The notes under the pieces are model-generated. The model searched no databases. It had not been told where the DNA came from and saw nothing but the letters and a program-made list of their open reading frames with translations. 64,000 bases of DNA from Austropuccinia psidii (lineage: Eukaryota; Basidiomycota; Pucciniomycetes; Pucciniales; Sphaerophragmiaceae): positions 20,893,866-20,957,865 of the forward strand of contig JALGQZ010000008.1 in assembly GCA_023105745.1 (NCBI GenBank), given 5' to 3'. The translations under genes and the position numbers were made by a program. This document shows, in pieces, positions 4,341 through 56,075 of this stretch (positions are counted from its first letter, which is position 1; every line of letters starts with the position of its first letter).

Positions 4341-4391
4341 TTTCACGTCAATTTTAAGATAAAGAGTGAAAATGTAAATATAAAACACAAC

Positions 4392-4549
4392 TTTTGGTGT
4401 TAAATTAGTCTTTTCAGAGTTGAATAAGGTTCCTCTTTTGGCAATTTGCACTTCAATACTATCTTCAGATTCTGCTTCTGAAGATTTTGGACTGGTAATA
4501 TAGCTCTTACTGAGACTATTACCAGCTCCACAGTATTTGATTAAAGACA
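4392..4549 (-). pseudogene. Element D ORF0, exon 2 remnant
   Basis: The exon begins TG directly after a pyrimidine-rich acceptor (CTCTCTAG|TG, 4550/4549). A candidate donor A|GTTACT at 4687/4686 would supply the A of a split ATG, giving MSLIKY. The peptide continues with an acidic stretch (SSEAESEDSIE) and runs to a weak donor GTTGTG at 4391. Its position and the AG|TG junction match A, B and C. The exon appears to end at phase 0, not phase 1, probably through decay. Confidence 0.5.
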
Positions 4550-6826: not shown

Positions 6827-7702
6827 TTGTTACGCCTGAAATTAACCTGAAGAGTGATCAACTGTGGTTACCAATGTCCCAATTTTCAGTGAAAATCCCA
6901 GAGAAATTTGAAGAACTCCATAGGAGCAATGTGAGGTTTCAATAATTGATGAATTTACAAGAGGAAACAATAAAAGCCAACAAAGAGATTTATGTTAAAT
7001 TAATAAAAGCCTCTGAATAAACCAACAAAATACTAAATAAAGAACTTGAAGAGCAATACCAATGCAAGAGAGACAGGGATTTTCTGGATCAAGACATAAA
7101 CAAATTGTTGAATTTCTTCCAAAAAAGAACCCTTAACCACAAGGACATGCTTTGGTTTATCCATACCATCAAGACATCAAACCAGATGTTTTGTTGAGTA
7201 ATATGGCAAGATTCACTTCTCAATACCAAGATGGAGATAATATGACTTATTCAGAGAAGTAACCATTGAAACACCTTCCAGAGGCCTCAAGTCCTCCCAA
7301 ATTCTCTGGCATAGGTGAGTATGATCATATGGAACTCATTGATTATATTGATGCACTCTGTAGTGATGTACCAAGTATACCAGATTAATTTATTACTGCC
7401 AAATTAAACACAGAATTAAAACATAGAATTAAAAGTAAGTGCTAGTATCTGGTACACAGAAATGAAAGAAATCCATGGCAGAAGAAACTGGCCATTTTGG
7501 GGCAGTCAAATATTGCAGAAGTACAGCAATTGTACTTGAATATGGAAAAATACCATGTAATTTGGGAATTACAAATAGTCAGTGGACAAAGATCTATATG
7601 AATGGTGTCTCAGACATTCTAAAAGACTTAAATCCACTTATCCTTAAATAAAAAATCAGATGAGGAATCAAAAACTCTCAACAGAAATGCCAGGAGAACT
7701 AA
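6827..7702 (+). pseudogene. A0 gag fragment
   Basis: Translated by eye, this block follows family-A Gag from the coiled-coil region (ACTGTGGTTACCAATGTCCC near 6864) through the capsid motifs, including W-x-T-E-M-K-E-I-H-G-R-R-N-W, to the block that precedes E-L-E-H-A. It ends exactly where the A2 LTR begins. Stops and small indels occur throughout, for example TAA after S-E-K near 7260. No product is expected. Confidence 0.75.
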
Positions 7703-9125
7703 TGTCAGCCTGTGACTCAAAACCAGAGCACAAGCGTGACAGCCAAAATACCATAAACCAATGGTATAGCCAAGATACCACCAAAACATAGAGCTGAGCC
7801 AAATTAGCTCAAAAGGTATCAAACGAAAGAGGAAACTCACCTCTTTCTGAAAATATAAGTCTCATCACCATAGGACAAAGAATAACAAAGTTGTTGCTGA
7901 GAATAAACCTTAATTTTCACCTCTCATCTAAAATCTAGAAGGAGAGGCTTAACCCCATCAAATGGGTATTCAAAATGAAGCTCTAAGCCAGGGCTATCCA
8001 ATGGTACTAGCCAAACTGAGCTAGCACCAGTATTACTTGAGTTATGGTCAAATTCAGACCAAATAAGGGTGAACAAAACATTCACCTCTCATCTAACTTC
8101 TACAGTTTTAGTGTGAGATGCCTAAAGTGGGGTCTTTTTGGAAAGGGCACAATCAGGGCTATCTGATGGTGCCATCCATTTTCTCATAGCTCAACTACAA
8201 CAGAAGTTATTGGCCAAACAAGCTTAATACAGCTTTTGCCCAAACCACGCCAATGTACAAAAATACTTGTACATGGGATAACTTTGCCATATTTAATGAT
8301 AACCATGTCAAGTTGGGTACCATTGTGTAGAGCCCATATAGAGCTATTCAATGAACCAATTTTGAGCTTGATATCTCAAACACTGACAGAGTTATGACCA
8401 TTTTAAGGTCAAAATCCCACCTGCTGTCATATACAGCCTTACCATGGGATAATATCCCATAACCATGAATATGAGGTGTCAAATAGACGAAGAAGCATGT
8501 TTTTAATTCAATACCTCATATGTCAGTCAATACTGGGGTCCCATACAGTTTCTGTACAGCATTCTACGCGTCATACACATCAGAATCAGGCTGTGAGGTC
8601 CCCAGATGAAAAGTTTCACCCTGTATTGGTGAAAACTGCCCAGATGTGGTTTCAAAACCACATCTGAGCCCAATACAGAGTATACAGGCTGTTTGCAAAC
8701 CACAAGCCTGTCATAGAGAGTGAAAAATCTTCACTTCCTCTACGTGGAAAGGTCTAGCAGCCTTTCCACCTCAATTTCAGGATAAAAGGAGGGCTTTTCA
8801 CAGCCAAAAAACCTCTCCTCATCCTGCTCTTGAATAACCTACATAGTAAACTGTCAAAAACAGTTTTACTCTTGGTTAATAATAAGGTATACTCTTAACT
8901 TGAAAGTATTGTAGTCTTTATTATTGTAACCCAACAGGTAAAACTGCACCCAGGGCTTTCAACAGTGCTCACCACCACTATATCTCTATAGTAAAGCCCT
9001 TAATACCTTAATTCTATCATCTATTATCAACTTTATTATCTTTTAAAGCTATTTTTACCGTGTCACAGTCATAGTTAAAGCCTGTAAATACTTATATACA
9101 CCTTTATCATAGACTCAACCTGACA
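7703..9125 (+). repeat. A2 5' LTR (family A)
   Basis: The LTR starts TGTCAGCC and ends CCTGACA, 1423 bp. It is followed at once by the primer-site motif and preceded by decayed A0 gag. It contains a TATA-like box (8781-8790) and a CpG-bearing motif ACGCGT (8566-8571) that is conserved in most other family-A LTRs. Confidence 0.93.
8781..8790 (+). promoter_or_regulatory. TATA-like box in A2 5' LTR
   Basis: GATAAAAGGA sits about 340 bp before the LTR end, in a context conserved in all family-A LTRs. It is the best core-promoter candidate and would place the transcript start near 8810-8820. No experimental support is visible. Confidence 0.4.
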
Positions 9126-9144
9126 TTTTGGGGGCCTGGCCGTG
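9126..9144 (+). promoter_or_regulatory. A2 primer-binding-site-like motif
   Basis: TTTTGGGGGCCTGGCCGTG directly follows the 5' LTR. A TGG a few bases inside the LTR is typical for pairing with the CCA end of a tRNA. I cannot name a tRNA that fits the rest. B has the identical core. Confidence 0.7.
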
Positions 9145-9253
9145 TTTTAAAACTTTTTTGGACCTTAAAAGTAAGTCTTTTTCTCTTTTTATGACTTATT
9201 AACCAGTGTTTTATCTTTTTTTAGGCGTAATTTTTTTATTATTTAAATATATA

Positions 9254-9258
9254 TATTA
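9254..9258. repeat. Target-site duplication of A1, left (TATTA)
   Basis: TATTA precedes the A1 LTR at 9259 and is repeated at 18946-18950 after its other end, as expected for integrase-mediated insertion. Confidence 0.92.
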
Positions 9259-10688
9259 TGTCAGGATGATACTATGATAAAGGTATAACTAGGCTAATTA
9301 CAACTTTAACTGTGTATTTGACACGGTAAAAATGATTTAAAAAAAGATTTATAAGAGTTTATAATGAGATAAAAGGATTCTACTATTGAGAAATAGTGGT
9401 GGTGAGCACTATTGAGAACCCTGGGTGCAGGCTTTATCTGTTGGATTACAATAATAAAGTCTACAATAATTAAAGATTATAATTATACCTGATTATTTAA
9501 CCAAGAGTAAAACTGTTTTTGACAGTTTACTACGTAGGTTATTCAAGAGCAGGATGGGGAAAGGTTTTTGGCAGTGAAAAACCCTCCTTTTATCCTGAAA
9601 TTGGGGTGAAAAGGCTGTTAGACCTTTTCACGTAGAGGAAGTGAAGATTTTTCACTCCTCATGACAAGCTTATGGTTTGCAAACAGCCTGTATACCCTGT
9701 ATTGGGCTCAGATGTGGTTTTGAAACCACATTTGGGCAGTTTTCACCAATACAGGGTGAAAATTTTCATCTGGGGACCTCACAGCCTGATTCTGACATGT
9801 ATGACGCGTAGAATGCTGTACAGAAACTGTATGGGACCCCAGTATTGACTGACATATGAGGTATTGAAGTAAAAACATGCTTCTTCGTCTATTTGACACC
9901 TCATATTCATGGTTATAGGGTATTATCCCATGGTAAGGCTGTATATGACAGCAGGTGGGATTTTTACCTTAGAATTGCCATAACTCTGTCTGTTTTTGAG
10001 ATATCAAGCTCAAAGTTGGTTCATTGAATAGCCCTGTATGGGCTCTATACAATGGTACCCAATTTTACATGGCTATCATTAAATATGGCAAAGTTATCCC
10101 ATGTACAAGTGTTTTTATACATTGGCGTGTTTTGGGCAAAAGCTGTATTAAGCTTGTTTGGCCAATAACTTCTGTTCTAGTTGAGATATGAGGAAATGGA
10201 TGACACCATCAGATAGCCCTGCTTGTGCTCTTTCCAAAAAGACCCCACTTCAAGTATCTCACACTAAAACTGTAGAAGTTAGATGAGAGGTGAATGTTTT
10301 GTTCACCCTTATTTGGTCTGAATTTGACCATAACTCAAGTAATACTGGTGCTAGCTCAGTTTGGCTAGTACCATTGGATAGCCCTGGCTTAGAGCTTCAT
10401 TTTGAATACCCATTTGATGGGGTTAAGCCTCTCCTTCTAGATTTTAGATGAGCGGTGAAAATTAAGGTTTATGCTCAGCAATAACTTTGAGCAGGAATAA
10501 CTTTGTTATTTCTTGTCCTATGGTGATGGGACTTATATTTTCAGGAAGAGGTGAGTTTTCTCTTTCTTTTGATACCTTTTGAGCTAATTTGGCTCAGTTC
10601 CATGTTTTGGTGGTATTTTGGCTATACCATTGGTTTATGGTATTTTGGCTGTCATGCTTGTGCTCTGGTTTTGAGTCACAGGCTGACA
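9259..10688 (-). repeat. A1 3' LTR (family A)
   Basis: On the plus strand it runs from TGTCAGGATG to GGCTGACA. It matches 17516-18945 along its whole length. Several of the differences are CG/TG or CG/CA changes, for example at the ACGT preceding ACGCGT. Confidence 0.95.
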
Positions 10689-10700
10689 TACCCTCCCTCT
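10689..10700 (-). promoter_or_regulatory. A1 polypurine tract
   Basis: The minus strand reads AGAGGGAGGGTA immediately before the 3' LTR, the usual place and composition for the plus-strand primer. A2 has the same tract at 25632-25643. Confidence 0.8.
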
Positions 10701-10712
10701 AAAAAAGGCTCA

Positions 10713-13700
10713 TCATTGATGAGACTGTTCAGTCCTCCTAGAGGCTCTGAATCTCCTTAAATGAAGGTTCCCATCTGGTATGGCATCCTCTGCCAACCAT
10801 TTGTCTTTGTCAGCTGTCTGGTTCTTGAATCTGACTAGGTATTGTCTCTGATCCTTCCCATTAAGTCTGATTTTTCTGGCCCTGATGATTTTACTCACAG
10901 GTCCAGGAGAGTCGTCTACTTCCACTATTTCTGGTGGAGTGATGTTTTTCTTCCTGGAGGGGAATTTATGCTCCTCTGTTTGGAAGTATGGTTTGACCAG
11001 GCTCACTGGAAAGACTGGGTGTTTCCTAGAAAACTCCTCAGTGAGCTTGACCTCTACTGCATTCTTCCCTATCAACTTAATGATAGTGAAGGTCCCTACA
11101 AATGAGTCTCTCATTTTCTTAGGTCCTTTGAGATTGTTAAAGTTCAGTGTAGACACTAACACCTGGTCCCCTTCCTTGAAGTCAGGTTCCATATGTGACT
11201 TGTCCCACCTTTGCTTGTTATACTCTTTGGCCTCAGCTATGCATTTGGCAGCAGTATCACAGGCTTTCTTCCACATATAATGGAAGTCTTTGGCTGTGGG
11301 GTGGATGGTCAGAAGATTTTTCTTCAAGTGATCCACAGGTAACAGGGGATTCCACCCTTTCTCTACCAGTGCAGGTGTTTTTCCTGTGGTAGAGTGCTGG
11401 CTTGTATTATACGCCAGTTGGACTGCTGGTAAGAGGGTGACCCAATCATGGGTGTATCCCTCATGGTCCTTGTATTACATGCCATAGGCACAGAACCTCC
11501 TGAGGATGTCCTCCATTGTTTGGATCATCCTCTCAGCCAGGCCATCTGTTTGTGGATGGTAAGCTGTGGAAAAAGCAAGCTTGGTGCCAAGCATGTCATA
11601 TAAATTGGTCCAAAATTCAGATGTAAATTTTGGGTCCCTGTCACTAATTATGATCTTAGGGACTCCACAGGTGGATATGATGTTATTCCAAAATAACAGA
11701 GCAGTGTCCATGGCTGTGTCCTCTTTATGGCATGGTAGACATCTCATGCTCTTGCTGAACCTATCAACTATGATTAAGCAGGCATTGTAGTTTTCTTTGC
11801 CTCCTGGGACAAGTCCTGTGACCAAGTCCATGTTGATGGTTTCCCATGGGTGTTTGGGTTCTTCTATGTGTTGAAGTAACCCATATTTCTTCCCATGTTT
11901 TCTATTTGCCTTTTGGCATCTTTCACAAGTGTTGATGTATTCACTCAACTCTTGCTCCCACTTGGGCCACCAAGCTGTGCTTGCTACCCTCTCCTTAGTC
12001 CTGTCCTCACTCATGTGTCCCATGTAGGGGCAGTCATGGCATTTCTGCAGGATTAAACAGATGTGGTCTCTGTCTATCACTGTGAGTGCACTGGTGTGCT
12101 TGTCTCTGTGATAAATCAGGCCATCTATAAGGAAGAATTTATTGTCCTTATAGGCCCTCAACCAGGGTTCCTCCAGCTGGGTTTCCAGTTCTGGGCTCCT
12201 GTACTTTTGTTGAAGGAGTTGGAGTAGTATGCTACACTGTTTGTGTTTAGCATAAGATTTCAGTACTGCATTGAAGAATTCATTGTGCAGTTCTGAGGAA
12301 CTTATCCCCAGTATGGGGGTTTCTGTCCCTTCTGAATCAGTGTTTCCACTGTCAAGGGTACCACTCCCTGGTGCCCATTCAGAGAATCTGAAGTTCTTCT
12401 TCCTATCTATTTCCATAAAATGGATAGGAACTTTTGCAGCAACTTCAGGGTCATAAGCTGGATTGCTTTTGACATTGTCCAGTGGCCATCTGCTAAGGCC
12501 ATCTGCATTGGTATGGCTTTTACCTTCCTTGTATATGATGGTCATGTTCCCTCTATACTCCTGGATGGCTATTTGCCATCTCAGCATGTGTCTATTAGTA
12601 GTCTTCATGTTTAGTAAAGACTTCAAGGCTGTGCAGTCTGTGTAGACTTCAAAGACTGCACCCTCCAAATAGTAATGGAGTTTTTCTAGAGCCCAGACTA
12701 GGCATAAACATTCTGTCTGGGTGGCCCCATACCTGGCTTCTGAATCTTTCAGCTGCCTGGAGATGTAACATATTACACCTTCTCTTGGTTCACCATCCAC
12801 AATTTGTCTTTGGTCAAGGGCTGCTCCCAAGCCTTGGCTGCATGCTGCATCTATGTATAACTTGAATGGTAGTTCAAAGTCAGGCAAGATGAGCACAGGT
12901 GCATTAGTGAGTTCATATTTGATCCTCTCATATGCATCCCTCCTTTCCTTGGTTATTTCAAAAACTACATCCTTTGAGCATAACTTGTATAAACTACTGG
13001 TTATGTGGGCAAAGTTTTTGATGTGGTTTCTGTAGTAGCTAGCAAATCCAAGGAAAGATTGCATCTCTTTGATGTTCTTTGGTACTGGCTTTTGCAGTAC
13101 TGCTGCTACTTTGTTCTGGTCAATTGCCAGACTAAGGCCTGAGACTTTGTGTCCTAGAGCTAGTAGCTCTTGTTGGCCAAAATTACACTTTTTGAGTGAA
13201 ATTTTCAGATTGATGGGTGTACATTTACTTAACACTCTGTCTATGTATTGTACATGGTCTTCCCATGTCTCTGAGTATATCATGATATCATCAATGTATA
13301 CTACCATCCAGCCTTCCATTATTTCTTCTTGAAATATGGTGTCCATCATCCTTTGGAAGTGGGCTGGTGCATTCTTGATGCCAAATGGCATCCTGGTGTA
13401 CTCATATATGCCCATATGGCATATAATTCTGAGTAATTTCATGGAGTTTGGTTTAACTCCATTTTGGTGGAAGCCCTTCATACAATCCATCTTGGTTATG
13501 TATTTGGCTTTGGCCAGCTTATCTAAGGCATGAGGTATCCTTGGTATAGGGTACCTGTCTGCTTTTGTGTAGTTATTCAGGGCTCTGAATTCTCCACACA
13601 ATCTAGACTTGCCATCATGCCAGGTGATTAGGACAGGAGTGGTGATTTCCACTATTTCATTATGTCCAATCTTCCTAATGACATCCATGTCCAGGAGTTC

Positions 13701-14585
13701 ATTGATATGTTTCTCAATCTCTTTCCTGGTCTCCAGACTTGCTGGGTAAGGAGGTCTCCTTAACATGGGTGGATAAGGCCTTTCTACATCTAAATATACT
13801 TCTATATCATGGCCTTTGATCTTGCCTAATGGTTCTTCACCAATGGCAAATGCTGGTCTATTCTTCCTCAGCATCTTCAGTAAACTTAGCTTTTGTTTAC
13901 TGGTGAGGGTAGTGCTAAACTGTCCCTCTCTGAATTCTTTCAGAAGTTCTTCCAGTGGGTCCTGAGAAGATATCTGGTATATATCAAGAGAAAATTTCTT
14001 TTCCTTGTTAGTACCAATGGTAATAAGCCTATTTTTACTATTGTAAATATCTATGCCATACATCCTCTGGTAATCTGTTCCCAGTAAAAACCCTTGGATG
14101 TGGGCATCTTCAAGCACTACAAACTCTGGGTTGAGTCTGATATTACCTTTTCTGTGGGGTATAATTATCTCTTTGATAATTGTCCCAATAGAGGTCATCT
14201 TTCCAGATGCACTCTTAAAGTTCTTTGCCCTGGTGGGCAAGAGTTCTTTTTCCCATTTTGGGAAGTGGTTATCCAGATAATTCCTGGCCACTATGGAGCA
14301 GTGTGCTCCACTGTCAATGATCAGTGGGTGCTGAGCATTGTCAATACATACAATCATTTTTGTGGCTGTTCCATGTATATATGCCATTCCTTTGGTTGGT
14401 GTAACCAGGAATGTTTGTGCATCTTGTGTGTGTTTACAAAAGTTCTTGTTGGCAGTGTCTTGTGGCATGCCTGCTTCCAACTGTATATCCTGGATTTCTA
14501 GTGGGGTTTCCTCTTGGTATTCCACTAGAAATTCCTCTCTTGGGTCTTGATCCTCATCAGATGGTTCTCTGATGGCATCACCCAT
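10713..14585 (-). pseudogene. A1 Pol: protease-RT-RNase H-integrase-chromodomain, one stop
   Basis: A frame of about 1290 codons is broken only by TAA at 11475-11477, where A2 has GAA. Counting from ATG 14585, protease has DSGA at residues 91-94. RT has the fingers W-H-D-G-K-S-R-L-C and YIDD at 430-433. RNase H has its Asp near 579 and NADGLSR near 700. Integrase has an HHCC finger (CERC) and a DD35E core ([22 protein letters not shown]). After the stop the rest of the integrase tail and a chromodomain-like segment follow (QYLVRF ... KWLAEDAI). The polyprotein would copy and insert the element. The stop removes the tail needed for target choice. The start at 14585 assumes re-initiation; readthrough of the upstream TAG is the alternative. 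Confidence 0.93.
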
Positions 14586-14603
14586 AGAGTCTGATTCAGA
14601 ATC

Positions 14604-16568
14604 CTATTTTGGAGGTTCTTCTTCAGGGACTTTTTCTATAGCATAGACTTTCTTCTTTGCTTTTGGACAGATGTTGGCATAGTGGTCTGTTGAACCACAA
14701 TTGTGACAAGAATTCTTCTTCTTTGCCACTTCTGCCACTCTTTCTCTGGGTTTTTCTTTAAACTCTACCCTGAAAGGTTGTTTCTCTTTGAAACTATTGC
14801 TTCTATATGGGGTGAATTTCCCTATGTTGGTCCTTTTCCTTATGTCTTGTAAGGTATTGGCTATATCATCTAGAGTGCAATTTTGGTTGCATCTGCATTT
14901 TACTGCATGCTCTAGTTCTCCTGGCAGTTGTGTCAGAAGTTTATGATTCCTCATTTGAATGTTCATTTGAGGATCAATGGCTTTAAGTCTTTTAGACTGT
15001 CTAAGACACCACTCATATGGATCTTTGTCCACAGAGTATTTGTCATTTTCAAATGACATGGTCTTTTGCCATATCCAAGTTCCATTACTGTACTTTTGGA
15101 TTATTTGACTCTTCCACCATGGCCAGTTTCTTCTGCCATGGATTTCTTTCATTTCAGTGTACCATATACTTGCATGACCTTTAAATGCAGTATTCAGTCT
15201 AGCAGTAATCCAGTAGTCTGGTATGCTTGGTACATCAATGAAGAGTCCATCAATATAATCTATGAGTTCCATATGATCATATTCCCCTGATCCAGAGAAT
15301 TTGGGCCAGCTTGAGGCCTCAGGAAGTTGTTTCAAGGCTTCCTTCTCTGAATAAGACATGCCATCTCCATCCTGGTATTGTGATGGAGATCTCGCCTTAT
15401 TCAACAACATGGCATCTGGTTTGATGTCATCTGGTTGATATGGATTCTCCATAGCTTGGCCTTGTGTTTGGGGCTTTAAGCTATGGTAGGCATCAAACAA
15501 TTAGTTGATGTCTTGGTTCAGACACTCCCTGTCCCTGCTACTATGGTGTTGTTCTTCAGAGACTTGATTCAGTCTCTTATTGGTTTCTTGAGAGGCTTTG
15601 CTCAGTTGAGCATATCCTTCCTGAAGGTTTTTAATTATCTGCTCCAATGAGGCTTGAGTTTTTCTCATCCTCTCTTGGGCAGCTGCAAATTCTGTAACCT
15701 GCTTTGCAGATTGCTCAGCATATTGGGACATTTGTAACCACAGTGTGTCACTGTTGATGTTACTCTCAGATGTCATAATGTTATTTTCAGTCTGAGTGGG
15801 GGTAATGTTTCTATTACTAGGACTACTGATTCTAGAGTGGTTTACAACTACTTCTGGTTCTTGTGTACTTCTTTTACCAAATCTAACAGCTTCTGGATCA
15901 TGGGGTCTGACTCTTTCCTCCTCTGGTTGAAGGAGGCTTTGTTCTTGCCCTTGTTGCCTTGTCTTCTCCTGGAAACTTCCTGGAATTGTGAAGAATGGTG
16001 ACTCTTGGCCACTGATCTGCTGGTTTCTGAATGGTGTGAAGCCACTGGAGAGCTGATTTGGCTTGCTCCTTTTGAACCTGAAGGAATCTGAGTAGGCCCT
16101 GTCTGGGTTAACTGTTCTTCTATAGCTTGGATAGTGGCTTGATTCTCCCTTATCCTCTGTGCCCTTGCCTCCAGGAGTCTGTGCTGCCTGGTAGGGTTCC
16201 AACCCTTGGTGATTACCATAAGGTCTTTGAAGTCTATCTCTTTGATACAGATCTTCTGGCAACTTGATCCCAGTTCTGCCCAGTGAGTTGCTAGGTTGAA
16301 CCTCTTGTTGTCCATGCTCCATTGAAACAAGTCTTTGAGGAGTTGGTGGATTTGAAGAACTTGATCCATATCCTTCCAGTCCTCTGGTTTGAGGTTTCTG
16401 TTGAATTGGAGTGTGAATGGCAAGGTTGATATTATGCCCCTCATTGTTTTGCCATCCACCACTGTGTCCAATGTGTCTTCTTTCAGGTCTTCTGGTTCTA
16501 GACATTCCTGCTCTATCCTCTGGCTGGTTCCTTTGGAAGCCAAGGTCTCTGAGGTATGCAGGGGACAT
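14604..16568 (-). pseudogene. A1 Gag polyprotein, one stop
   Basis: This is the virus-like-particle protein. Starting at ATG 16566-16568 (MSPAYLRDLGF), it has a Gln/Ser/Arg/Pro-rich N-terminal part of about 240 residues, a coiled coil (AQERMRKTQASLEQII), then the capsid domain with WPKFSGSGEYDHMELIDYI and a zinc knuckle CHNCGSTDHYANIC. A TAA at 15501-15503 splits it where A2 has AAA. It ends at TAG 14604-14606, in the same frame as pol, 18 bases before the pol ATG. Its first 720 bases overlap ORF0 in another frame, and its ATG lies inside ORF0 intron 2. Confidence 0.9.
15848..16548 (-). CDS. A1 ORF0, exon 3 (overlaps gag in another frame)
   Basis: This 701-nt exon is open to its stop at 15848 in a frame different from gag. 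Spliced to exon 2 it completes a protein of 333 aa. Seen in it are a helical middle part with Cys and Trp (SSCQKICIKEIDF, then TKGWNP), a Gln/Thr/Pro/Ser stretch, a basic linker (SRRRQGNKGKNKA) and a C-terminal amphipathic helix (MIQKLLDLVKEVHKNQK). The last parts align with ORF0 of B, C and D. I do not recognise a known domain. A nucleic-acid-binding accessory role is possible from the basic linker but is only a guess. Confidence 0.62.
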
Positions 16569-16616
16569 ATCAGTGCTTGCAAGCAGTCAAAAACTTTATG
16601 TTCTTAGGGTATTTAC
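16549..16616 (-). other. A1 ORF0 intron 2 (68 nt), contains the gag ATG
   Basis: The donor is AAAG|GTAAAT and the acceptor ATACCTCAG|AGACC, with a branch-like CACTGAT between them. It is phase 1, and splicing moves translation from the exon 2 frame into the ORF0 exon 3 frame. If it is retained, the upstream frame ends at TGA and the gag ATG follows one base later (TGATATG). Confidence 0.6.
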
Positions 16617-16916
16617 CTTTGACTGTGCCTTGTACAAATTTGTTATCTGCTGATTTGGGCAGTTTGCCTTTGGAGGTTACAACTGGGTTAATAATTGTAA
16701 TCTTCCCTGTACAAGTGGTTAAGGTTGGTTTACCTTGTATTGAAGCAGAGTTTCGTGGTTTTCTACTCCTCTGAGTGGCTATTGGTGTCCACTTCTTGGC
16801 TGTAATGAGGCCTTCACTAAGCCTTTTTCCTTTACCCTTGCTGCCCTCTGGTTCTGAGGGTGTCACTGGTGTGTTGGCCTGTGACTGGGTTTCAAGTGGG
16901 ATGTAGTTTTCTTCCA
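16617..16916 (-). CDS. A1 ORF0, exon 2
   Basis: The exon starts TG after acceptor TTGATTCAG|TG. With A17469 from the leader exon this makes ATG and the peptide MEENYIPLETQSQ. The 100-residue segment is rich in Thr, Pro, Ser and Lys with basic clusters (GKGKR, RSRKPR) that could serve as nuclear-localisation signals. Without splicing there is no in-frame ATG, which supports the split start. Exons 2 and 3 plus the leader A total 1002 nt, an exact multiple of three. Confidence 0.6.
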
Positions 16917-17468
16917 CTGAATCAAAACAGGAAAAAAAGAGGGCTTATGTCAGTTAAGACTTCTTAAAAGGCTGGTTTTGCACGTCTAAGAATGGCCTCT
17001 GGGCTTGTATATTATTACAGTATGCCCTTGTATAATGACAGTGTAATTGAATTAACAATTTCACGTCAAAAATACAGCTTATGGTGTCCTGTCACACTGT
17101 TTGTGTGTCAGTATCCCTCAGATACACTTGTGGTTTGCAAGTGTATTCTGTGAAAGTGGTTTATATACAAGTGTTATTGAATTAACAATACACTTGACCA
17201 CGCCTCAACTGATGGTTTTTCAGTCAGAGGTGTCCTTATTCAGTCAAGAATACAGGACTTTATTAGTGGCTTATGTGTTTTTATATGCAAAACACGCCAA
17301 AAATAATAAATTACTGTGGGTGTTAACCACGTAAAAATACTCTTATAATATGAGTATGTGTAAAAAAAAGGTAAAAATATATAAAATATATATTTTTGAA
17401 ACAGGAATTACGCCTAAAAAAGGATAAAACAATGTGTTAATAAGTCATAAAAAGGAGAAAAGACTTAC
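16917..17468 (-). other. A1 leader intron (intron 1, 552 nt)
   Basis: The donor is CAA|GTAAGT at 17469/17468. The acceptor is CCTGTTTTGATTCAG| ending at 16917. The exon before ends in A and the exon after begins TG. The intron is AT-rich and holds no conserved frame. Confidence 0.6.
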
Positions 17469-17496
17469 TTGTAAGGTCCAAAAAAGTCAAAAAAAA

Positions 17497-17515
17497 CACG
17501 GCCAGGCCCCCAAAA
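17497..17515 (-). promoter_or_regulatory. A1 primer-binding-site-like motif
   Basis: The minus strand reads TTTTGGGGGCCTGGCCGTG directly inside the 5' LTR, identical to A2. Confidence 0.7.
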
Positions 17516-18945
17516 TGTCAGGATGATACTATGATAAAGGTATAACTAGGCTAATTACAACTTTAACTGTGTATGTGACACGGTAAAAATGATTTAAAAA
17601 AAGATTTATAAGAGTTTATAATGAGATAAAAGGATTCTACTATTGAGAAATAGTGGTGGTGAGCGCTATTGAGAACCCTGGGTGCAGGCTTTATCTGTTG
17701 GATTACAATAATAAAGTCTACAATAATTAAAGATTATAATTATACCTGACTATTTAACCAAGAGTAAAACTGTTTTTGACAGTTTACTACGTAGGTTATT
17801 CAAGAGCAGGATGGGGAAAGGTTTTTGGCAGTGAAAAACCCTCCTTTTATCCTGAAATTGGGGTGAAAAGGCTGTTAGACCTTTTCATGTAGAGGAAGTG
17901 AAGATTTTTCACTCCTCATGACAAGCTTGTGGTTTGCAAACAGCCTGTATACCCTGTATTGGGCTCAGATGTGGTTTTGAAACCACATCTGGGCAGTTTT
18001 CACCAATACAGGGTGAAAATTTTCATCTGGGGACCTCACAGCCTGATTCTGACGTGTATGACGCGTAGAATGCTGTACAGAAACTGTATGGGACCCCAGT
18101 ATTGACTGACATATGAGGTATTGAAGTAAAAACATGCTTCTTCGTCTATTTGACACCTCATATTCATGGTTATAGGGTATTATCCCATGGTAAGGCTGTA
18201 TATGACAGCAGGTGGGATTTTTACCTTAGAATTGCCATAACTCTGTCTGTTTTTGAGATATCAAGCTCAAAGTTGGTTCATTGAATAGCCCTGTATGGGC
18301 TCTATACAATGGTACCCAATTTGACATGGCTATCATTAAATATGGCAAAGTTATCCCATGTACAAGTGTTTTTATACATTGGCGTGTTTTGGGCAAAAGC
18401 TGTATTAAGCTTGTTTGGCCAATAACTTCTGTTCTAGTTGAGATATGAGGAAATTGATGACACCATCAGATAGCCCTGATTGTTCTCTTTTCAAAAAGAC
18501 CCCACTTCAAGTATCTCACACTAAAACTGTAAAAGTTAGATGAGAGGTGAATGTTTTGTTCACCCTTATTTGGTCTGAATTTGACCATAACTCAAGTAAT
18601 ACTGGTGCTAGCTCAGTTTGGCTAGTACCATTGGATAGCCCTGGCTTAGAGCTTCATTTTGAATACCCATTTGACGGGGTTGAGCCTCTCCTTCTAGATT
18701 TTAGATGAGAGGTGAAAATTAAGGTTTATGCTCAGCAATAACTTTGAGCAGGAATAACTTTGTTATTTCTTGTCCTATGGTGATGGGGCTTATATTTTCA
18801 GGAAGAGGTGAGTTTTCTCTTTCATTTGATACCTTTTGAGCTAATTTGGCTCAGTTCCATGTTTTGGTGGTATTTTGGCTATACCATTGGTTTATGGTAT
18901 TTTGGCTGTCATGCTTGTGCTCTGGTTTTGAGTCACAGGCTGACA
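17516..18945 (-). repeat. A1 5' LTR (family A)
   Basis: 1430 bp with ends TGTCAGGATG and GGCTGACA on the plus strand. It is followed by the right TATTA duplication. It carries the ACGCGT motif at 18061-18066 and a TATA-like box at 17842-17851 on the minus strand. Confidence 0.95.
17842..17851 (-). promoter_or_regulatory. TATA-like box in A1 5' LTR
   Basis: The minus strand reads GATAAAAGGA, matching the box in the A2 LTR. It is the candidate core promoter driving A1. Confidence 0.4.
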
Positions 18946-18950
18946 TATTA
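18946..18950. repeat. Target-site duplication of A1, right (TATTA)
   Basis: It is identical to 9254-9258. A2 leader-intron sequence resumes here. Confidence 0.92.
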
Positions 18951-19415
18951 TATATATTTTGATCCTTTTTATATACATACTCATATTATAAGAGTATTAT
19001 TCACGTGGCTAATACCCACTGAATTTAATTATTTTTGGCGTGTTTTGCATATAAAAACACATAAGCCATCAATAAAGTCCTGTATTCTTGACTGAATAAG
19101 GACACCTCTGACTGAAAAACCATCAGTTGAGGCGTGGATTAAGTGTATTGTTAACTCAATAACTTATACAAAACCACTTGTACAGAATACACTTGAAAAC
19201 CACAAGTGTATCTGTGGGATACTGGCACACAAACAGTGTGACAGGGTACCAAAAGCTGTAATTCTGACGTGAAATTGTTGATGCAATTACACTGTCATTA
19301 TAGAGGGCACATTGTAGTAACATACAAGCCCAGAGGCCAATCTTAGACGTGCAAAACCAGCATTTTGAAGAAGTCTTAACTGACATAAGTCCTCCCTTTT
19401 CTGCCTTGATTTCAG

Positions 19416-19715
19416 TGGAAGAAAATTACATCCCACTTGAGACCCAGTCACAGGCCGACACACCAGTGACACCCTCAGAACCAGAGGGCAGCAAGGGCAA
19501 AGGAAAGAGGCACGGTGAAGGTCTCATCACAGCCAAGAAGTGGACACCAATAACCACTCAGAGAAGTAGAAAACCAAGAAACTCTGCATCCATACAAGGT
19601 AAACCAACCTTAACCACTTGTACAGGAAAGATTACAATTATTAACCCAGTTGTAACTTCCAAAGGCAAATTGCCCAAGTCAGCAGACAGTAAATTTGTAC
19701 AAGGCACAGTCAAAG
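19416..19715 (+). CDS. A2 ORF0, exon 2
   Basis: It begins TG after acceptor TGATTTCAG|. Joined to A9170 it starts MEENYIPLETQSQAD. It is 300 nt, the same length as in A1, with only a few residue differences. It ends GTCAAAG at the donor of intron 2. The leader intron is now interrupted by A1, so this copy is probably not expressed in spliced form. Confidence 0.6.
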
Positions 19716-19783
19716 GTAAATACCCAAAGAACATAAAGTTTTTGACTGCTTGCAAACACTGATATGTCCCCTGTATACCTCAG
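19716..19783 (+). other. A2 ORF0 intron 2 (68 nt), contains the gag ATG
   Basis: GTAAAT at 19716 and CTCAG ending 19783 bound a phase-1 intron. The gag ATG is at 19764-19766, 17 nt before the intron end. TGA at 19760-19762 closes the exon 2 frame if the intron is retained, leaving one base before the gag ATG. Confidence 0.6.
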
Positions 19784-20484
19784 AGACCGTGGCTTCCAAA
19801 GGAACCAGCCAGAGGATAGAGGAGGATTGTCCAGAACCAGAAGACCTGAAAGAGGACACCCTGGACACAGTGGTGGATGGCAAAACAATGAGGGAGATAA
19901 TATCAACCTTGCCATTCACACTCCAATTCAACAGAAACCTCAAACCAGAGGACTGGAAGGATATAGATCAAGTTCTTCAGATCCACCAACTCCTCAAAGA
20001 TTTATTTCAATGGAGCATGGACAACAAGAGGTTCAACCTAGCAACTCACTGGGCAGAACTGGGATCAAGTTGCCAGAAGATCTGTATCAAAGAGATAGAC
20101 TTCAAAGACCTTATGGTAATCACCAAGGGTTGGAATCCTACCAGGCAGCACAGACTCCTGGAGGCAAGGGCACAGAGGATAAGGGAGAATCAAGCCACTA
20201 TCCTAGCTATAGAAGAACAGTTGACCCAGACAGGGCCTACTCAGATTCCTTCAGGTTCACAAGGAGCAGGCCAAATCAACTCTCCAGTGCCTTCACACCA
20301 TTCAGACACCAGCAGATCAGTGGCCAAGAGTCACCATTCTTCACAATTCCAGGAAGTTTCCAGGAGAAGACAAGGAAACAAGGGCAAGAACAAAGCCTCC
20401 TTCAACCAGAGGAGGAAAGAGTCAGACCCCATGATCCAGAAGCTGTTGGATTTGGTAAAGGAAGTACACAAGAACCAGAAGTAG
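19784..20484 (+). CDS. A2 ORF0, exon 3 (overlaps gag in another frame)
   Basis: The exon is 701 nt, as in A1, and open to its stop. Across about 240 shared codons A1 and A2 differ at about 14 residues in this frame against about 20 in the overlapping gag frame (counted by eye). The stretch around the middle helix and GWNP is unchanged. This frame therefore appears at least as constrained as gag. It ends with MIQKLLDLVKEVHKNQK. Spliced length would be 333 aa. Function is not recognised. Confidence 0.62.
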
Positions 20485-21725
20485 TTGTAAACCACTCTAG
20501 AATCAGTAGTCCTAGTAATAGAAACATTACCCCCACTCAGACTGAAAATAACATTGTCACATCTGAGAGTAACATCAACAGTGATACACTGTGGTTACAA
20601 GTGTCCCAATATGCTGAATAATCTGCAAAGCAATTTGAAGAAATTAAAGCTAGCCAAGAGAGGATGAGACAAACTCAAGCCTCCTTGGAACAAATAGTTA
20701 AAAATCTTCAAGAAGGATAAGCTCAACTGAGCAAAGCCTCTGAAGAATCCAACAAAAGACTGAACCAAGTCTTTGAAGAACAACACCACAGCACAAGGGA
20801 CAGGGAGTGTCTGGATCAAGACATTAACAAATTGTTTAATGCCTACCATAGCTTAAAGCCCCAACCACAAGGCCAAGCTATGGAGAATCCATATCAACCA
20901 GATGACATCAAACCAGATGCCATGATGTTGAACAAGGAAGGATCTCCATCACAATACCAGGATGGAGATGGCATGTCTTATTCAGAGAAGGAAGCCTTGA
21001 AACAGCTTCCTGAGGCCTCAAACTGGCCCAAATTCTCTGGATCAGGAGAATATGATCATATGGAACTCATAGATTATATTGATGGACTCTTCATTGATGT
21101 ACCCAGCATACCAGATTACTGGATTACTGCTAGACTGAATACTGCATTTAAAGGTCATGCAAGTATATGGTACACTGAAATGAAAGAAATACATGGCAGA
21201 AGAAACTGGCCATGGTGGAAGAGTCAAATAATCCAAAAGTACAGTAATGGAACTTGTATATGGCAAAAGACCATGTCATTTGAAAATGACAAATACTCTG
21301 TGGAAAAAGATCCATATGAGTGGTGTCTTAGACAGTCTAAAAGACTTAAAGCCATTGATCCTCAGATGAACATCCAAATGAGGAATCACAAACTTCTGAC
21401 ACAACTGCCAGGAGAGCTAGAGCATGCAGTAAAATGCAGGTGCAACCAGAATTGCACTCTAGATGACATAGCCAACACCTTACAAGACATAAGGAAGAGG
21501 ACTAATATAGGGAAATTTACCCCATATAGATGCAGTAGTTTCAAGGAGAAACAACCTTTCAGGGTGGAGTTCAAAGACAAACCCAGAGAAAGAGTGGCAG
21601 AAGTGGCAAAGAAGAAGAATTCTTGTCACAATTGTGGTTCAACAGACCACTATGCCAACAACTGTCCAAAGGCAAAGAAAAAAGTCTATGCTATAGAAAA
21701 AGTCCCTGAAGAAGAACCTCCAACA

Positions 21726-21728
21726 TAG
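21726..21728 (+). other. In-frame TAG between gag and pol
   Basis: The gag frame continues through TAG GAT into pol without a shift. The same arrangement occurs in A1 (14604-14606). The next base is G, as in known UAG-G readthrough contexts. Re-initiation at the ATG 18 bases downstream is the other possibility. Confidence 0.5.
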
Positions 21729-21746
21729 GATTCTGAATCAGACTCT

Positions 21747-24700
21747 ATGGGAGATGCCATCAGAGAACCATCTGAGGATGATCAAAACCCAAGAGAGGAA
21801 TTTCTAGTGGAATACCAAGAGGAAACCCCATTGAAAATCCAGGACATACAGTTGGAAGCAGGCATGCCACAGGACACTGCCAACAAGAACTTATGCAAAC
21901 ACACACAAGATGCACAAACATTCCTGGTTACACCAACCAAAGGAATGGCATATATACATGGAACAGCCACAAAAATGACTGTATGTATTGACAATGCTCA
22001 GCACCCACTGATCATTGACAGTGGAGCACATTGCTCCATAGTGGCCAGAAATTATCTGGATAACCACTTCCCAAACTAGGAAAAACAGCTCTTGCCCACT
22101 AAGGCAAAGAGCTTCAAGAGTGCATCATGGAAGATGACTTCCATTGGGACAATTATCAAGGAGATAATTATACGCCACAGGAAGGGTAATATCAGACTCA
22201 ACCCAGAGTTTGTAGTGCTTGAAGATGCCCACATCCAAGGGTTTTTACTGGGAACAGATTACCAGAGGATGTATGGCATAGATATTTACAACAGTAAAAA
22301 CAGGCACATTACCATTGGTACCAACAAGGAAAAGAAATTTTCACTTGATATATACCACATATCTTCACAAGACCCACTGGAAGAACTCTTGAAGGAATTC
22401 AAGGAGGGACAGTTTAGCACTACCCTCACCAGTAAACAAAAACTAAGTTTACTGAAGATGCTGAGGAAAAACAGACCAACATTTGCCATTGGTGAAGAAC
22501 CACTAGGCAAGATTAAAGGCCATGATGTAGAACTATATCTGGATGTGGAAAGACCTTATCCACCCATGCTGAGGAGACCTCCTTATCCAGCAAGCCTGGA
22601 AACCAGGAAAGAAATTGAAAAACACATCAATGAACTCCTGGACATGGATGTCATCAGGAAGATTGGACATAATGAAATAGTGGAAATCACCACTCCTCTC
22701 CTGATCACCTGGCCTGATGGCAAGTCTAGATTGTTTTGAGACTTCAGAGCCCTGAATAACTACACAAAAGCAGACAGGTACCCTATACCAAGGATACCTC
22801 ATGCCTTAGATAAGCTGGCCAAAGCCAAATACATAACCAAGATGGATTGTATGAAAGGCTTCCACCAAAATGGAGTTAAACCAAACTCCATGAAATTGCT
22901 CAGAATAATATGCCATATGGGCATATATGAGTACACCAGGATGCCATTTGGCATCAAGAAAGCACCAGCCCACTTCCAAAGGATGATGGACACCATATTT
23001 CAAGAAGAAATAATGGAAGGCTGGATGGTATTATATATTGATGATATCATTATATACTCAGAGACATGGGAAGACCATGTACAATACATAGACAGATTTC
23101 TAAGTAAATGTACACCCATCAATCTGAAAATTTCACTTAAAAAGTGTAATTTTGGCCAACAAGAGCTGCTAGCTCTAGGACACAAAGTCTCAGGCCTTAG
23201 TCTGGCAATTGACCAGAACAAAGTAGCAGCAGTACTGCAAAAGCCAGTACCAAAGAGCATCAAAGAGATGCAATCTTTCCTTGGGTTTGCTAGCTACTAT
23301 AGAAACCACATTAAGAACTTTTCACACATAACTAGTAGTTTATACAAGTTATGCTCAAAGGATGTAGTTTTTGAAATAACCAAGGAAAGGAGGGATGCAT
23401 ATTAGAGGATCAAATATGAACTCACAAATGCACCTGTGCTCATCTTGCCTGACTTTGAACTACCATTCAAGTTATATATAGATGCAGCATGCAGCCAAGG
23501 CTTGGGAGCAGCCCTTCACCAAAGACAAATTGTGGATGGTGAACCAAGAGAAGGTGTAATATGTTACATCTCCAGGCAGCTGAAAGATTCAGAAGCCAGG
23601 TATGGGGCCACCCAGACAGAATGTCTATGTCTAGTCTGGGCTCTAGAAAAACTCCATTATTATTTGGAGGGAGCAGTCTTTGAAGTCTACACAGACTGCA
23701 CAGCCTTGAAGTCTTTACTAAACATGAATACTACTAATAGACACATGCTGAGATGGCAAATAGCCATCCAGGAGTATAGAGGGAACATGACCATCATATA
23801 CAAGGAAGGTAAAAGCCATACCAATGCAGATGGCCTTAGCAGATGGCCACTGGACAATGTTAAAAGCAATCCAGCTTATGACCCTGAAGTTGCTGCAAAA
23901 ATTCCTATCCATTTTATGGAAATAGATAGGAAGAAGAACTTCAGATTCTCTGAATGGGCACCAGGGAGTGGTACCCTTGACAGTGGAAACACTGATTCAG
24001 AAGGGACAGAAACCCCCATACTGGGAATAAGTTCCGCAGAACTGCACAATGAATTTTTCAATGCAGTACCGAAATCTTATGCTAAACACAAACAGTGTAG
24101 CATACTACTCCAACTCCTTCAACAAAAATACAGGAGCCCAGAACTGGAAACCCAGCTGGAGGAACCCTGGTTGAGGGCCTATAAGGACAATAAATTCTTC
24201 CTTATAGATGGCCTGATTTATCACAGAGAAAAGCACACCAGTGCACTCACAGTGACAGACAGAGATCACATCTCTTTAATCCTGCAGGAATGCCATGACT
24301 GCCCCTATATGGGACACATGAGTGAGGACAGGACTAAAGAGAGGGTAGCAAGCACAGCTTGGTGGTCCAAGTGGGAGCAAGAGTTTAGTGAATACATAAA
24401 CACTTGTGAAAGATGCCAGAAGGCAAATAGAAAACATGAAAAGAAATATGGGTTTCTTCAACACATAGAAGAACCCAAACACCCATGGGAAACCATCAAC
24501 ATGGACTGGGTCACAGGACTTGTCCCAGGAGGCAAAGAAAACTACAATTCCTGCTTAATCATAGTTGATAGTTTCAGCAAGAGCATGAGATGTCTACCAT
24601 GCCATAAAGAGGACACAGCCATGGACACTGCTCTGTTATTTTGGAATAACATCATATCCACCTGTGGAGTCCCTAAGATCATAATTAGTGACAGGGACCC

Positions 24701-25619
24701 AAAATTCACATCTGAATTTTGGACCAATTTATATGACATGCTTGGCACCAAGCTTGCTTTTTCCACAGCTTACCATCCACAAACAGATGGCCTAGCTGAG
24801 AGGATGATCCAAACAATGGAGGACATCCTCAGGAGGTTCTGTGCCTATGGCATGGAATACAAGGACCATGAGGGATACACCCATGATTGGGTCACCCTCT
24901 TACCAGCAGTCCAACTGGCGTATAATACAAGCCAGCACTCTACCACAGGAAAAACACCTGCACTGGTAGAGAAAGGGTGGAATCCCCTGTTACCTGTGGA
25001 TCACTTGAAGAAAAATATTCTGACCATCCACCCCACAGCCAAAGACTTCCATGATATGTGGAAGAAAGCCTGTGATACTGCTGCCAAATGCATAGCTGAG
25101 GCCAAAGAGTATAACAAGCAAAGGTGGGACAAGTCACATATGGAACCTGACTTCAAGGAAGGGGACCAGGTGTTAGTGTCTACACTGAACTTTAACAATC
25201 TCAAAGGACCTAAGAAAATGAGAGACTCATTTGTAGGGCCCTTCACTATCATTAAGTTGATAGGGAAGAATGCAGTAGAGGTCAAGCTCACTGAGGAGGT
25301 TTCTAGGAAACACCCAGTCTTTCCAGTGAGCCTGGTCAAACCATACTTCCAAACAGAGGAGGATAAATTCCCCTCCAGGAAGAAAAACATCACTCCACCA
25401 GAAATAGTGGAAGTAGAAGATTCCCCTGGACCTGTGAGTAAAATCATCAGGGCCAGAAAGATCAGAATTAATGGGAAGGATCAGAGACAATATCTAGTCA
25501 GATTCAAGAACCAGACAGCTGACAAAGACAAATGGTTGGCAGAGGTTGCCATACCAGATGGAAACCTTCATTTAAAAAGATTCAGAGACTCTAGGAGGAC
25601 TGAACAGTCTCATCTATGA
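21747..25619 (+). pseudogene. A2 Pol with three nonsense codons
   Basis: The frame is collinear with A1 Pol over its whole length. Stops lie at 22077-22079 (A1 has TGG), 22737-22739 (A1 has GGA) and 23403-23405 (A1 has GAG). Protease (IIDSGAHCS), RT ([10 protein letters not shown]), RNase H ([17 protein letters not shown]) and integrase ([20 protein letters not shown]) are all recognisable. The last 727 codons (23436-25619) are open, including the integrase tail and the chromodomain-like segment (QYLVRF ... KWLAEVAI). RNase H-integrase could be intact only if translated on its own, which is unlikely. Confidence 0.93.
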
Positions 25620-25631
25620 TGAGCCTTATTT

Positions 25632-25643
25632 AGAGGGAGGGTA
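25632..25643 (+). promoter_or_regulatory. A2 polypurine tract
   Basis: AGAGGGAGGGTA lies immediately before the 3' LTR, the primer site for plus-strand synthesis. Confidence 0.8.
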
Positions 25644-27081
25644 TGTCAGCCTGTGACTCAAAACCAGAGCACAAACATGACAGCCAAAATACCATAAACC
25701 AATGGTATAGCCAAAATACCACCAAAACATGGAACTGAGCCAAATTAGCTCAAAAGGTATCAAACGAAAGAGGAAACTCACCTCTTTCTGAAAATATAAG
25801 TCTCATCACCATAGGACAAGAAATAACAAAGTTATTCCTGCTCAAAGTTATTGCTGAGCATAAACCTTAAATTTCACCTCTCATCTAAAATCTCGAAGAA
25901 GAGGCTTAACCCCATCAAATGGGTATTCAAAATAAATCTCTAAGCCAGGCCTATCTAATGGTGCTAGCCAAACTGAGCTAGCACCAGTATTACTTGATTT
26001 ATGGTCAAATTCAGACCAAATAAGGGTGAACAAAACATTCACCTCTCATCTAACTTTTACAGTTTTAGTGTGAGATACTTAAAGTGGGGTCTTTTTGGAA
26101 AGAGCACAATCAGGGTTATCTGATGGTGCCATCCATTTCCTCATAGCTCAACTACAACAGAAGGTATTGGCCAAACAAGCTTAATACAGCTTTTGCCCAA
26201 ACCACGCCAATGTACAAAAATACTTGTACATGGGATAACTTTGCCATATTTGATGATAACCATGTCAAGCTGGGAAACATTGTGTAGAGCTCATATAGAG
26301 CTATTCAATGAACCAATTTTTAGCTTGATATCTCAAAAACTGACAGAGTTATGACCATTTTAAGTTCAAAATCCCACCTGCTGTCATATACAGCCTTACC
26401 ATGGGATAATATCCCATAACCATGAATATGAGGTGTCAAATAGACGAAGAAGCATGTTTTTACTTCAATACCTCATATGTCAGTCAATACTGGGGTCCCA
26501 TACAGTTTCTGTACAGCATTCTACGCGTCATACACGTCAGAATCAGGCTGTGATGTCCCCAGATGAAAATTTTCACCCTGTATTGGTGAAAACTACCCAG
26601 ATGTGGTTTCAAAACCACATCTGAGCCCAATAAAGAGTATACAGGCTGTTTGCAAACCACAAGCCTGTCATAGAGAGTGAAAAATCTTCACTCCCTATAC
26701 GTGGAAAGGTCTAGCAGCCTTTCCACCTCAATTTCAGGATAAAAGGAAGGCTTTTCACAGCCAAAAACCTCTCCTCATCCTGCTCTTGAATAACCTACGT
26801 AGTAAACTGTCAAAAACAGTTTTACTCTTGGTTAATAATCAGGTATACTCTTAACTTAAAAGTATTGTAGTCTTTATTATTGTAACCCAACAGGTAAAGC
26901 TGCACCCAGGGCTTTCAACAGCGCTCACCACCACTATATCTCTATAGTAAAGCCCTTAATACCTTAATTCTATCATCTATTATCAACTTTATTATCTTTT
27001 AAAGCTATTTTTACCGTGTCACAGTCATAGTTAAAGCCTGTAAATACTTATATACACCTTTATCATAGACTCAACCTGACA
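25644..27081 (+). repeat. A2 3' LTR (family A)
   Basis: 1438 bp from TGTCAGCC to CCTGACA. It matches the A2 5' LTR with scattered substitutions and a few small indels, and carries ACGCGT at 26523-26528. A0 pol resumes at 27082. Confidence 0.93.
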
Positions 27082-38267: not shown

Positions 38268-38318
38268 ATTTTATGATTAAAAAGGTTTAAAATAGTAATT
38301 TTACGTCAAAAAACTTAC
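38254..38318 (-). other. Element C ORF0 intron 2 (65 nt), contains the gag ATG
   Basis: The donor AATA|GTAAGT is strong and the acceptor is TCAACTAG|ATCAGG. It is phase 1. The gag ATG (38265-38267) lies 11 bases before the intron end. With retention the exon 2 frame stops at 38287-38289, about 20 bases before the gag ATG. Confidence 0.6.
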
Positions 38319-38516
38319 TATTGGCCAAATTCTTAGCTTTCTGAAGGGTATTAATTATGTCCAAGTTGATCAATTCAGAAGATATTGGTTCAGGTTGAAT
38401 ATTCTGAGTCACAATAATTGTACTATTATCGTCAGAATTAACAGTACTGGCAGGAACAATGCTGGTTACTGATGAGGCTGTTTCAATGTTTTCTTGTCTT
38501 ACCACGTTGTCAGACA
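38319..38516 (-). CDS. Element C ORF0, exon 2
   Basis: It starts TG after acceptor GATTAATTTTAG|. With A38594 of the leader it begins MSDNVVRQENIETASS. It is Ser/Thr/Val/Ile-rich, 198 nt, and ends at a strong GTAAGT donor. There is no in-frame ATG without splicing of the leader intron. Confidence 0.58.
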
Positions 38517-55374: not shown

Positions 55375-55510
55375 TTACCAACCATCAAAAAATATTTTTT
55401 CAAAATCTAATATAGTTAATTAGAATATCATACACTGTCCTACATCTTCATTAGACTCCGTTAGTCTTTAAGCTAAATAATGCTTTGATTTTCTATTCTT
55501 TAGGTCTACT

Positions 55511-56071: not shown

Positions 56072-56075
56072 TAAG

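Follow-up and report, generated by a model that had tools for sequence, protein, structure and literature searches.

The stretch of DNA analyzed here (the window) comprises 64,000 nucleotides (nt) of contig JALGQZ010000008.1 of Austropuccinia psidii. Self-BLAST identified it as a nest of Ty3/Gypsy elements, and five copies with a leader (A1, A2, B, C and F) were compared around the start of gag, where a further open reading frame (ORF), named ORF0, overlaps the 5' part of this gene.

Nested elements and a predicted intron around the gag start

The long terminal repeats (LTRs) of A1 were 98.7% identical in the self-BLAST comparison, a TATTA target-site duplication was read directly at its ends, and its insertion point is the leader of A2. 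A putative primer-binding site, TTTTGGGGGCCTGGCC, follows the LTR, and the pieces of A1 contain the domains zf-CCHC, RVT_1 (331-487), RT_RNaseH (575-683), Integrase_H2C2 (844-901) and rve (918-1017), in this order. By its LTRs, duplication, primer-binding site and domain order, A1 is a Ty3/Gypsy LTR retrotransposon. The chromodomain, which is the mark of chromoviruses, scored 14.9 bits in A1, below the cut-off of 25.1, and none was listed for B and C. Primer-binding sites starting with TTTGGGG(G/T)CC were located just inside the LTRs at 17515, 9128, 38744, 43848 and 4913.

The pol regions of C (minus strand) and B (plus strand) match that of A, and their sequence near the gag start differs from A, as an earlier reading of this DNA (the original prediction) had stated. 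F (minus strand, about 702-4913) resembles B and C but is decayed, and probably corresponds to the element called D in that prediction, which was said to keep remains of the layout. This fits F, as its ORF0 matches B and C piecewise, with a frame shift and stops. The features of all of these copies are collected in Table 1.

Table 1. Position of the elements, predicted introns and ORF0 exons in the window (a slash marks a predicted splice site).
Feature	Position	Strand	Description
A1 intron 1	16917..17468	-	552 nt; donor CTTACAA/GTAAGT after 17469, acceptor TTCAG/TG before 16916
A1 ORF0 exon 2	16617..16916	-	Leading TG completes split ATG; no genomic ATG within
A1 intron 2	16549..16616	-	68 nt, phase 1, GTAAAT...CTCAG; contains gag ATG 16568-16566
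A1 ORF0 exon 3	15848..16548	-	Different frame overlapping gag, runs to stop
A2 intron 1, piece 1	9171..9258	+	Donor CTTAAAA/GTAAGT after 9170; resumes at 18946-19415
A2 intron 1, piece 2	18946..19415	+	Acceptor TTTCAG/TG before 19416
A2 ORF0 exon 2	19416..19715	+	
A2 intron 2	19716..19783	+	68 nt, phase 1, GTAAAT...CTCAG; gag ATG at 19764
A2 ORF0 exon 3	19784..20484	+	Overlaps gag
C intron 1	38517..38593	-	77 nt; donor TATAA/GTGAGG after 38594, acceptor TTTTAG/TG before 38516
C ORF0 exon 2	38319..38516	-	No genomic ATG
C intron 2	38254..38318	-	65 nt; gag ATG at 38267
C ORF0 exon 3	37604..38253	-	Overlaps gag; stop at 37604-37606
B ORF0 exon 2	44359..44508	+	After acceptor CTTTTTTAG/TG; leader donor uncertain (candidate 44058/44059)
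B intron 2	44509..44594	+	86 nt; gag ATG at 44584
B ORF0 exon 3	44595..45217	+	Decayed, several stops
F remains	3588..4549	-	Exon 2 from acceptor CTCTCTAG/TG, gag ATG 4340, broken ORF0 pieces 4165-3914, 3836-3588
A1 element	9259..18945	-	LTRs about 9259-10690 and 17516-18945; self-BLAST, ends read directly
A2 element	7702..27081	+	Interrupted by A1: 5' LTR and leader 7702-9258, rest 18946-27081; self-BLAST, flanks

It had been claimed that the gag ATG of A1 and A2 lies within a 68-nt phase-1 intron, and that its removal would link the upstream exon to a different frame overlapping the 5' part of gag. Both the coordinates and the phase of this intron (intron 2) were confirmed, and the overlapping frame is open to its stop over 701 nt in the two copies. 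The distance from the gag ATG to the end of intron 2 is 20 nt in A1 and A2, 14 nt in C and 11 nt in B, and the overlap of ORF0 with gag extends over 650-701 nt across A1, A2 and C. The spliced ORF0 measures exactly 1002 nt in A1 and A2 and 849 nt in C, including the stop; these lengths are multiples of three, as the original prediction stated, the value of 1002 requiring that the assembled ATG described below be counted. The same layout had been proposed for C and B. It is intact in C and both of these introns hold the gag ATG, but exon 3 of B is decayed.

If the ORF0 ATG is assembled and intron 2 is retained, translation would end at a TGA separated from the gag ATG by a single base (TGA-T-ATG) in A1 (16572-16566) and A2 (19760-19766), which is a stop-start arrangement. 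The corresponding stop in C is about 20 nt ahead of the gag ATG, and no such stop is present in B. Additionally, family A has a tandem acceptor, CAGAG (16549-16546 in A1, 19783-19786 in A2), whose second AG, 2 nt further on, would fuse exon 2 to the gag frame.

A start codon predicted to be split by the leader intron

The intron switch between Gag-Pol and ORF0 put forward in the original prediction is well supported at the sequence level but was incomplete: the upstream exon (exon 2) carries no ATG, with zero found in A1 and C, and a splice from the leader is needed. A pyrimidine-rich acceptor with a TG was observed directly before exon 2 in all five leader-bearing copies, the first base of this exon being 16916 in A1, 19416 in A2, 38516 in C, 44359 in B and 4549 in F. 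A clear leader donor was identified in A1, A2 and C, that of B and F being uncertain; in A1 and A2 it is placed shortly inside the element, and in C 150 nt inside. In these three copies the leader exon ends in A and the acceptor is followed by TG; therefore, the splice would make an ATG in the ORF0 frame. ORF0 would not be expected to carry its own ATG, because an ATG in exon 2 would precede gag on the unspliced RNA. An intron-like stretch of about 55 nt, ending in CTTTTTTAG, was also noticed just after the leader donor of family A (17414-17468 on the minus strand, 9171-9224 on the plus strand), and it holds the lone upstream ATG of this family.

The number of ATGs from the primer-binding site to the gag ATG was then compared with the mean of 500 dinucleotide shuffles. 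A single ATG was found in the 948 nt of A1 (11.4 expected), in the 477 nt of C (7.2 expected) and in the 573 nt of F (7.7 expected), and two in the 739 nt of B (8.7 expected). The two pieces of A2 contain one ATG in 128 nt (0.9 expected) and one in 816 nt (14.0 expected), that is, two versus 14.9. None or almost none of the 500 shuffles was as poor in ATG (P 0.000), except for the short piece of A2 (P 0.77). CAT, which is the ATG of the opposite strand, was counted in the same intervals and occurred 14 times in A1, 0 and 16 times in the A2 pieces, 10 in C, 12 in B and 7 in F. The 900 nt past the gag ATG contain 8-26 ATGs, and later coding regions are also normal. The sole upstream ATG of A1 begins a frame of only three codons. 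This depletion fits scanning to gag on the unspliced RNA.

The arrangement is likely to work as a reciprocal start-codon switch between Gag-Pol and ORF0, operated by two splices. The unspliced RNA would serve as genome and as Gag-Pol mRNA, and ribosomes would scan through a leader nearly free of ATGs to the gag ATG; with the ORF0 ATG split across an intron, no ATG would stand in front of gag on this RNA. Joining of the leader donor to the AG/TG acceptor would assemble the ORF0 ATG from A and TG, and the removal of intron 2, presumably from the same RNA molecule, would eliminate the gag ATG and let ORF0 be translated from the frame overlapping gag. At the sequence level, the evidence documented for this switch comprises the anatomy of the sites, the split ATG, the ATG desert and, as detailed below, the coding selection on ORF0 and the open gag frame.

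Moreover, intron 1 of family A (16917-17360 on the minus strand, 18970-19415 on the plus strand) was predicted to form consecutive hairpins with a stability well above that of its shuffles, with z scores of -8.2 in A1 and -7.2 in A2, or about -6.1 with separate shuffles. Paired sites of the A1 structure differ less than unpaired ones (14/265 versus 28/173, P 0.0002); for the A2 structure the difference was not significant (23/295 paired versus 19/143 unpaired, P 0.08). Covariation was weak, with one pair changed on both sides and 10 or 15 pairs broken. The A1 LTR, included as a control, also folds at z -3.2. No such structure was found in the leaders of C and F, and that of B reached z -3.0. 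These models single out intron 1 as a possible packaging or export element, in family A only.

Selection on ORF0 and annotated gene models

The pattern of codon substitutions between A1 and A2, a check suggested in the original prediction, revealed selection on ORF0 and none detectable on the gag amino acids of the overlap. In exon 2, 15 of the 22 differences fall at ORF0 third positions and 5 are nonsynonymous, versus 14.9 expected; none of 3000 random placements gave so low a number. In the overlap, 14 of the 24 differences are at ORF0 third positions and 12 are nonsynonymous in the ORF0 frame (17.9 expected, P 0.007). When the overlaps of B and C were compared, ORF0 showed the strongest conservation (49/136 identical residues, z 25), followed by the third frame (32/78, z 13.2) and gag (45/178, z 11.6). 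The agreement of F with B and C was also strongest in ORF0, spread over two frames due to its frame shift. The divergence between A1 and A2 was 3.4% in the overlap, 3.7% in pol, 7.3% in exon 2 and 6.0% in the remaining gag; the idea that the overlap evolves unusually slowly was rejected, given the similar value of pol.

These data bear on the possibility that ORF0 encodes no protein, its frame being open since gag codons rarely give stops there, and the splice-like sites having arisen by chance. When gag was kept and its synonymous codons were shuffled, just 0.5-1.6 ORF0 stops were expected, so the observed zero is not unusual (P 0.55 in A2, 0.40 in A1 and 0.11 in C); shuffling the order of the gag codons gave P values for zero stops of 0.08 in A2, 0.07 in A1 and 0.0002 in C. 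The open frame as proof of coding was therefore rejected. However, a non-protein ORF0 is opposed by the selection on exon 2 and on the overlap, by its rank as the best frame between B and C, by the split ATG with its AG/TG acceptor and by the gene-model boundaries described next, and it is considered improbable. Judging by the substitutions, the protein conservation among B, C and F, the ATG desert, the AG/TG found in five of five copies and those boundaries, the ORF0 layout exceeds what chance would give.

Protein searches matched 1870 sequences with the gag frame, 942 with the A-type ORF0 and 521 with the C-type ORF0. The best 120 of each set, to which all of the following counts refer, were named Austropuccinia psidii MF-1 without exception, the first match being 91%, 89% and 80% identical, respectively. 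These models are predictions, and the passages of PMC10455828 and PMC7951889 do not describe the procedure behind them. Twenty-one A-type ORF0 models lack an initial M: 9 start at the first full codon past the intron-2 acceptor, 4 past the intron-1 acceptor and 8 elsewhere. The same was observed in 26 C-type models, 17 of them starting right past the intron-1 acceptor, 3 past the intron-2 acceptor and 6 elsewhere. Non-M starts thus coincide exactly with a predicted acceptor in 13/21 (A) and 20/26 (C) models. The 17 C-type models starting at the intron-1 acceptor carry the label 'partial', as would be expected from a gene finder unable to split an ATG. Fifty-five A-type and 50 C-type models extend across junction 2, and the match is gap-free in 40/55 and 34/50 of them.

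The exon-2 peptide was also detected in 6 gag-frame models, 3 of which are joined via the acceptor located 2 nt downstream. These three models are drawn as the tandem acceptor CAGAG of family A would allow, and they agree with a different explanation, that the ORF0 sequence is an N-terminal part of Gag, reached by frameshift or alternative acceptor, and that no separate ORF0 protein matters. A fusion of this kind requires neither the absence of gag-frame stops across the whole overlap nor an ATG desert ending at the gag ATG, both of which were observed, and we give it little credence.

Regarding the gag frame itself, 20 of the 24 differences in the overlap are nonsynonymous, versus 17.7 expected (P 0.92), compared with 20/33 (24.4 expected, P 0.06) in the next 316 nt, which encode gag only. 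Between B and C, the gag amino acids of the overlap are kept no better than those of the meaningless third frame. Synonymous shuffling of the ORF0 codons produced 7.8-8.4 stops in the gag frame, and zero were observed in A1, A2 and C (0/5000 shuffles). We infer that ORF0 is probably the frame constrained in its amino acids, and that the gag extension appears to be selected mainly to stay open. The lack of amino-acid constraint would also be explained if Gag started downstream of ORF0, the overlapping gag frame being an unused extension and ORF0 an ordinary upstream gene. Such a start is very unlikely, since gag-frame stops are strongly avoided (0 versus about 8) and the scarcity of ATGs lasts up to the gag ATG and gives way to ordinary numbers beyond it.

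The ORF0 product predicted from the start-codon switch is a basic protein of about 280-330 amino acids with an isoelectric point of 9.2-9.7, and is probably helical according to the models. The models of exon 3 were poor, with a mean predicted local distance difference test (pLDDT) of 47 in A and 67 in C, and both show helices together with an unstructured stretch and a further helix at the C-terminus. Basic stretches are present in A1, A2, B and C; a strict leucine-rich export pattern was found in C and not in A1, A2 or B. No family above the cut-off was obtained in the Pfam scan of ORF0, no match was found among PDB sequences, and Foldseek gave no match at E 0.001 for the poor C model, C being the only ORF0 searched by fold. 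A Rev/Rex-type relation did not appear in these sequence searches or in the fold search of the C model. The introns could also be a host or element brake, the main effect of splicing being the loss of the Gag-Pol message, with ORF0 as a by-product; the deletion of the gag start with intron 2 and the absence of a function from the Pfam and PDB comparisons agree with it, but such a dead end needs neither amino-acid constraint on ORF0 nor an ATG assembled in frame, and it is highly improbable.

Weighing the switch and known splicing systems

Several observations weigh against the start-codon switch, in addition to the low number of ORF0 stops expected when gag is kept. The switch is supported by sequence, not by RNA or peptides, and the A1 and A2 copies are not intact, because gag is interrupted in each of them by an in-frame stop located past the overlap (15501-15503 on the minus strand in A1, 20619-20621 on the plus strand in A2); neither copy has a stop within ORF0. 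In B and F the leader donor is weak or has been lost, with three weak A/GT sites in B and two in F; a candidate donor pair at 44058 and 4687 sits in a similar stretch and was not counted as established. In A1 another possible acceptor lies closer, 55 nt past the leader donor, and for this reason the use of that donor by ORF0 is not certain. ATGs occur at an ordinary rate in the A1 LTR (25 versus 23.5 expected), part of which may belong to the transcribed leader, and in C an upstream ORF of five codons at the primer-binding site lies ahead of both start codons. No relation between the ORF0 proteins of A and C was detected by sequence and profile comparison. Among the best 120 gene models of each set, 96 gag-frame models (1870 matches) start at the gag ATG, the majority of the ORF0 models stop short of exon 2, and a gap at junction 2 was present in 15/55 (A) and 16/50 (C) of the spanning models.

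In complex retroviruses, regulators such as Rev and Rex are produced from fully spliced RNA and the unspliced RNA makes Gag-Pol; to our knowledge, a split ATG combined with a gag ATG inside an intron has no counterpart in this class. Insect gypsy-type elements express Env from a subgenomic RNA spliced from a leader donor, this extra protein being encoded after pol. Ogre-type elements have an extra ORF upstream of gag that does not overlap it, and an intron between later domains. Ogre and similar plant Gypsy elements are also like the rust elements in having spliced transcripts, as described in passages of PMC3735527. The same passages describe a small 104-nt alternatively spliced intron in BARE1, a Copia element of barley, which similarly decides the product of the retrotransposon RNA (PMC3735527). 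Unlike the introns reported here, that of BARE1 lies at the end of gag, and its splicing gives Gag alone, with no new overlapping protein.

The original prediction knew of no Ty3/Gypsy element with this arrangement. The layout itself was not found described in a literature search that covered few subscription papers, and the main texts of the A. psidii genome paper and of a rust transposable element paper do not mention intron or gag. However, Cer1 of C. elegans, a Gypsy/Ty3 element, is a related precedent and the nearest one found. The passages of PMC10309623 describe that Cer1 expresses CERV, an accessory protein made from spliced mRNA, one of whose exons does not share the frame of gag. As would apply to the rust elements, its unspliced RNA is the genome and the Gag-Pol mRNA, and a spliced mRNA encodes the accessory protein; its primer-binding site, TGGGGGCCG, also resembles that of the rust elements, TGGGGGCC... 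(PMC10309623). By contrast, the CERV mRNA has five exons, the first three are in the gag frame and the C-terminal half comes from an ORF after pol, and these passages describe neither a split ATG nor an intronic gag ATG, the comparison with CERV being one of descriptions (PMC10309623). For a spliced mRNA of the CERV kind, the rust elements present predicted splice sites and the split ATG, features of the DNA alone.

ORF0 translated from fully spliced RNA might act in favour of the unspliced RNA, like CERV in Cer1. A role of ORF0 in regulating the unspliced RNA, through export or splicing, is proposed only tentatively, by analogy with CERV and Rev. It is likewise speculative that a large group of rust-fungus elements combines the start-codon switch with control of the unspliced genome by ORF0, a single promoter and almost identical RNAs yielding either Gag-Pol or this regulator, as a fungal counterpart of the regulation of complex retroviruses. 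If true, the switch would provide a very compact output of two proteins from one RNA without interference from upstream ATGs, and would place retrovirus-like spliced regulation in fungal LTR elements. It would also bear on the dominance of Gypsy elements in a gigabase-size rust genome, of which, according to passages of PMC8063080, more than 90% is covered by transposable elements, mostly Gypsy. Moreover, annotation of a gene whose ATG is divided by an intron would yield 'partial' hypothetical proteins, which is how the MF-1 models look.

Relatives of these elements were also sought among viral contigs and genome contigs, and none was confirmed; Rfam gave no match at the gathering score in the region 7500-45000. 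An older A-like element (74-80% identity) is represented by pieces at 6824-7701, 27082-30521 and 40566-41840, split by A2 and C, and the ORF0 region was looked for in them and not recognised. Finally, a further B-like element is located on the minus strand at 53381-62890. It is interrupted by an A-type LTR at about 59684-61122, and its 5' end is cut by another A-type LTR from 62893.

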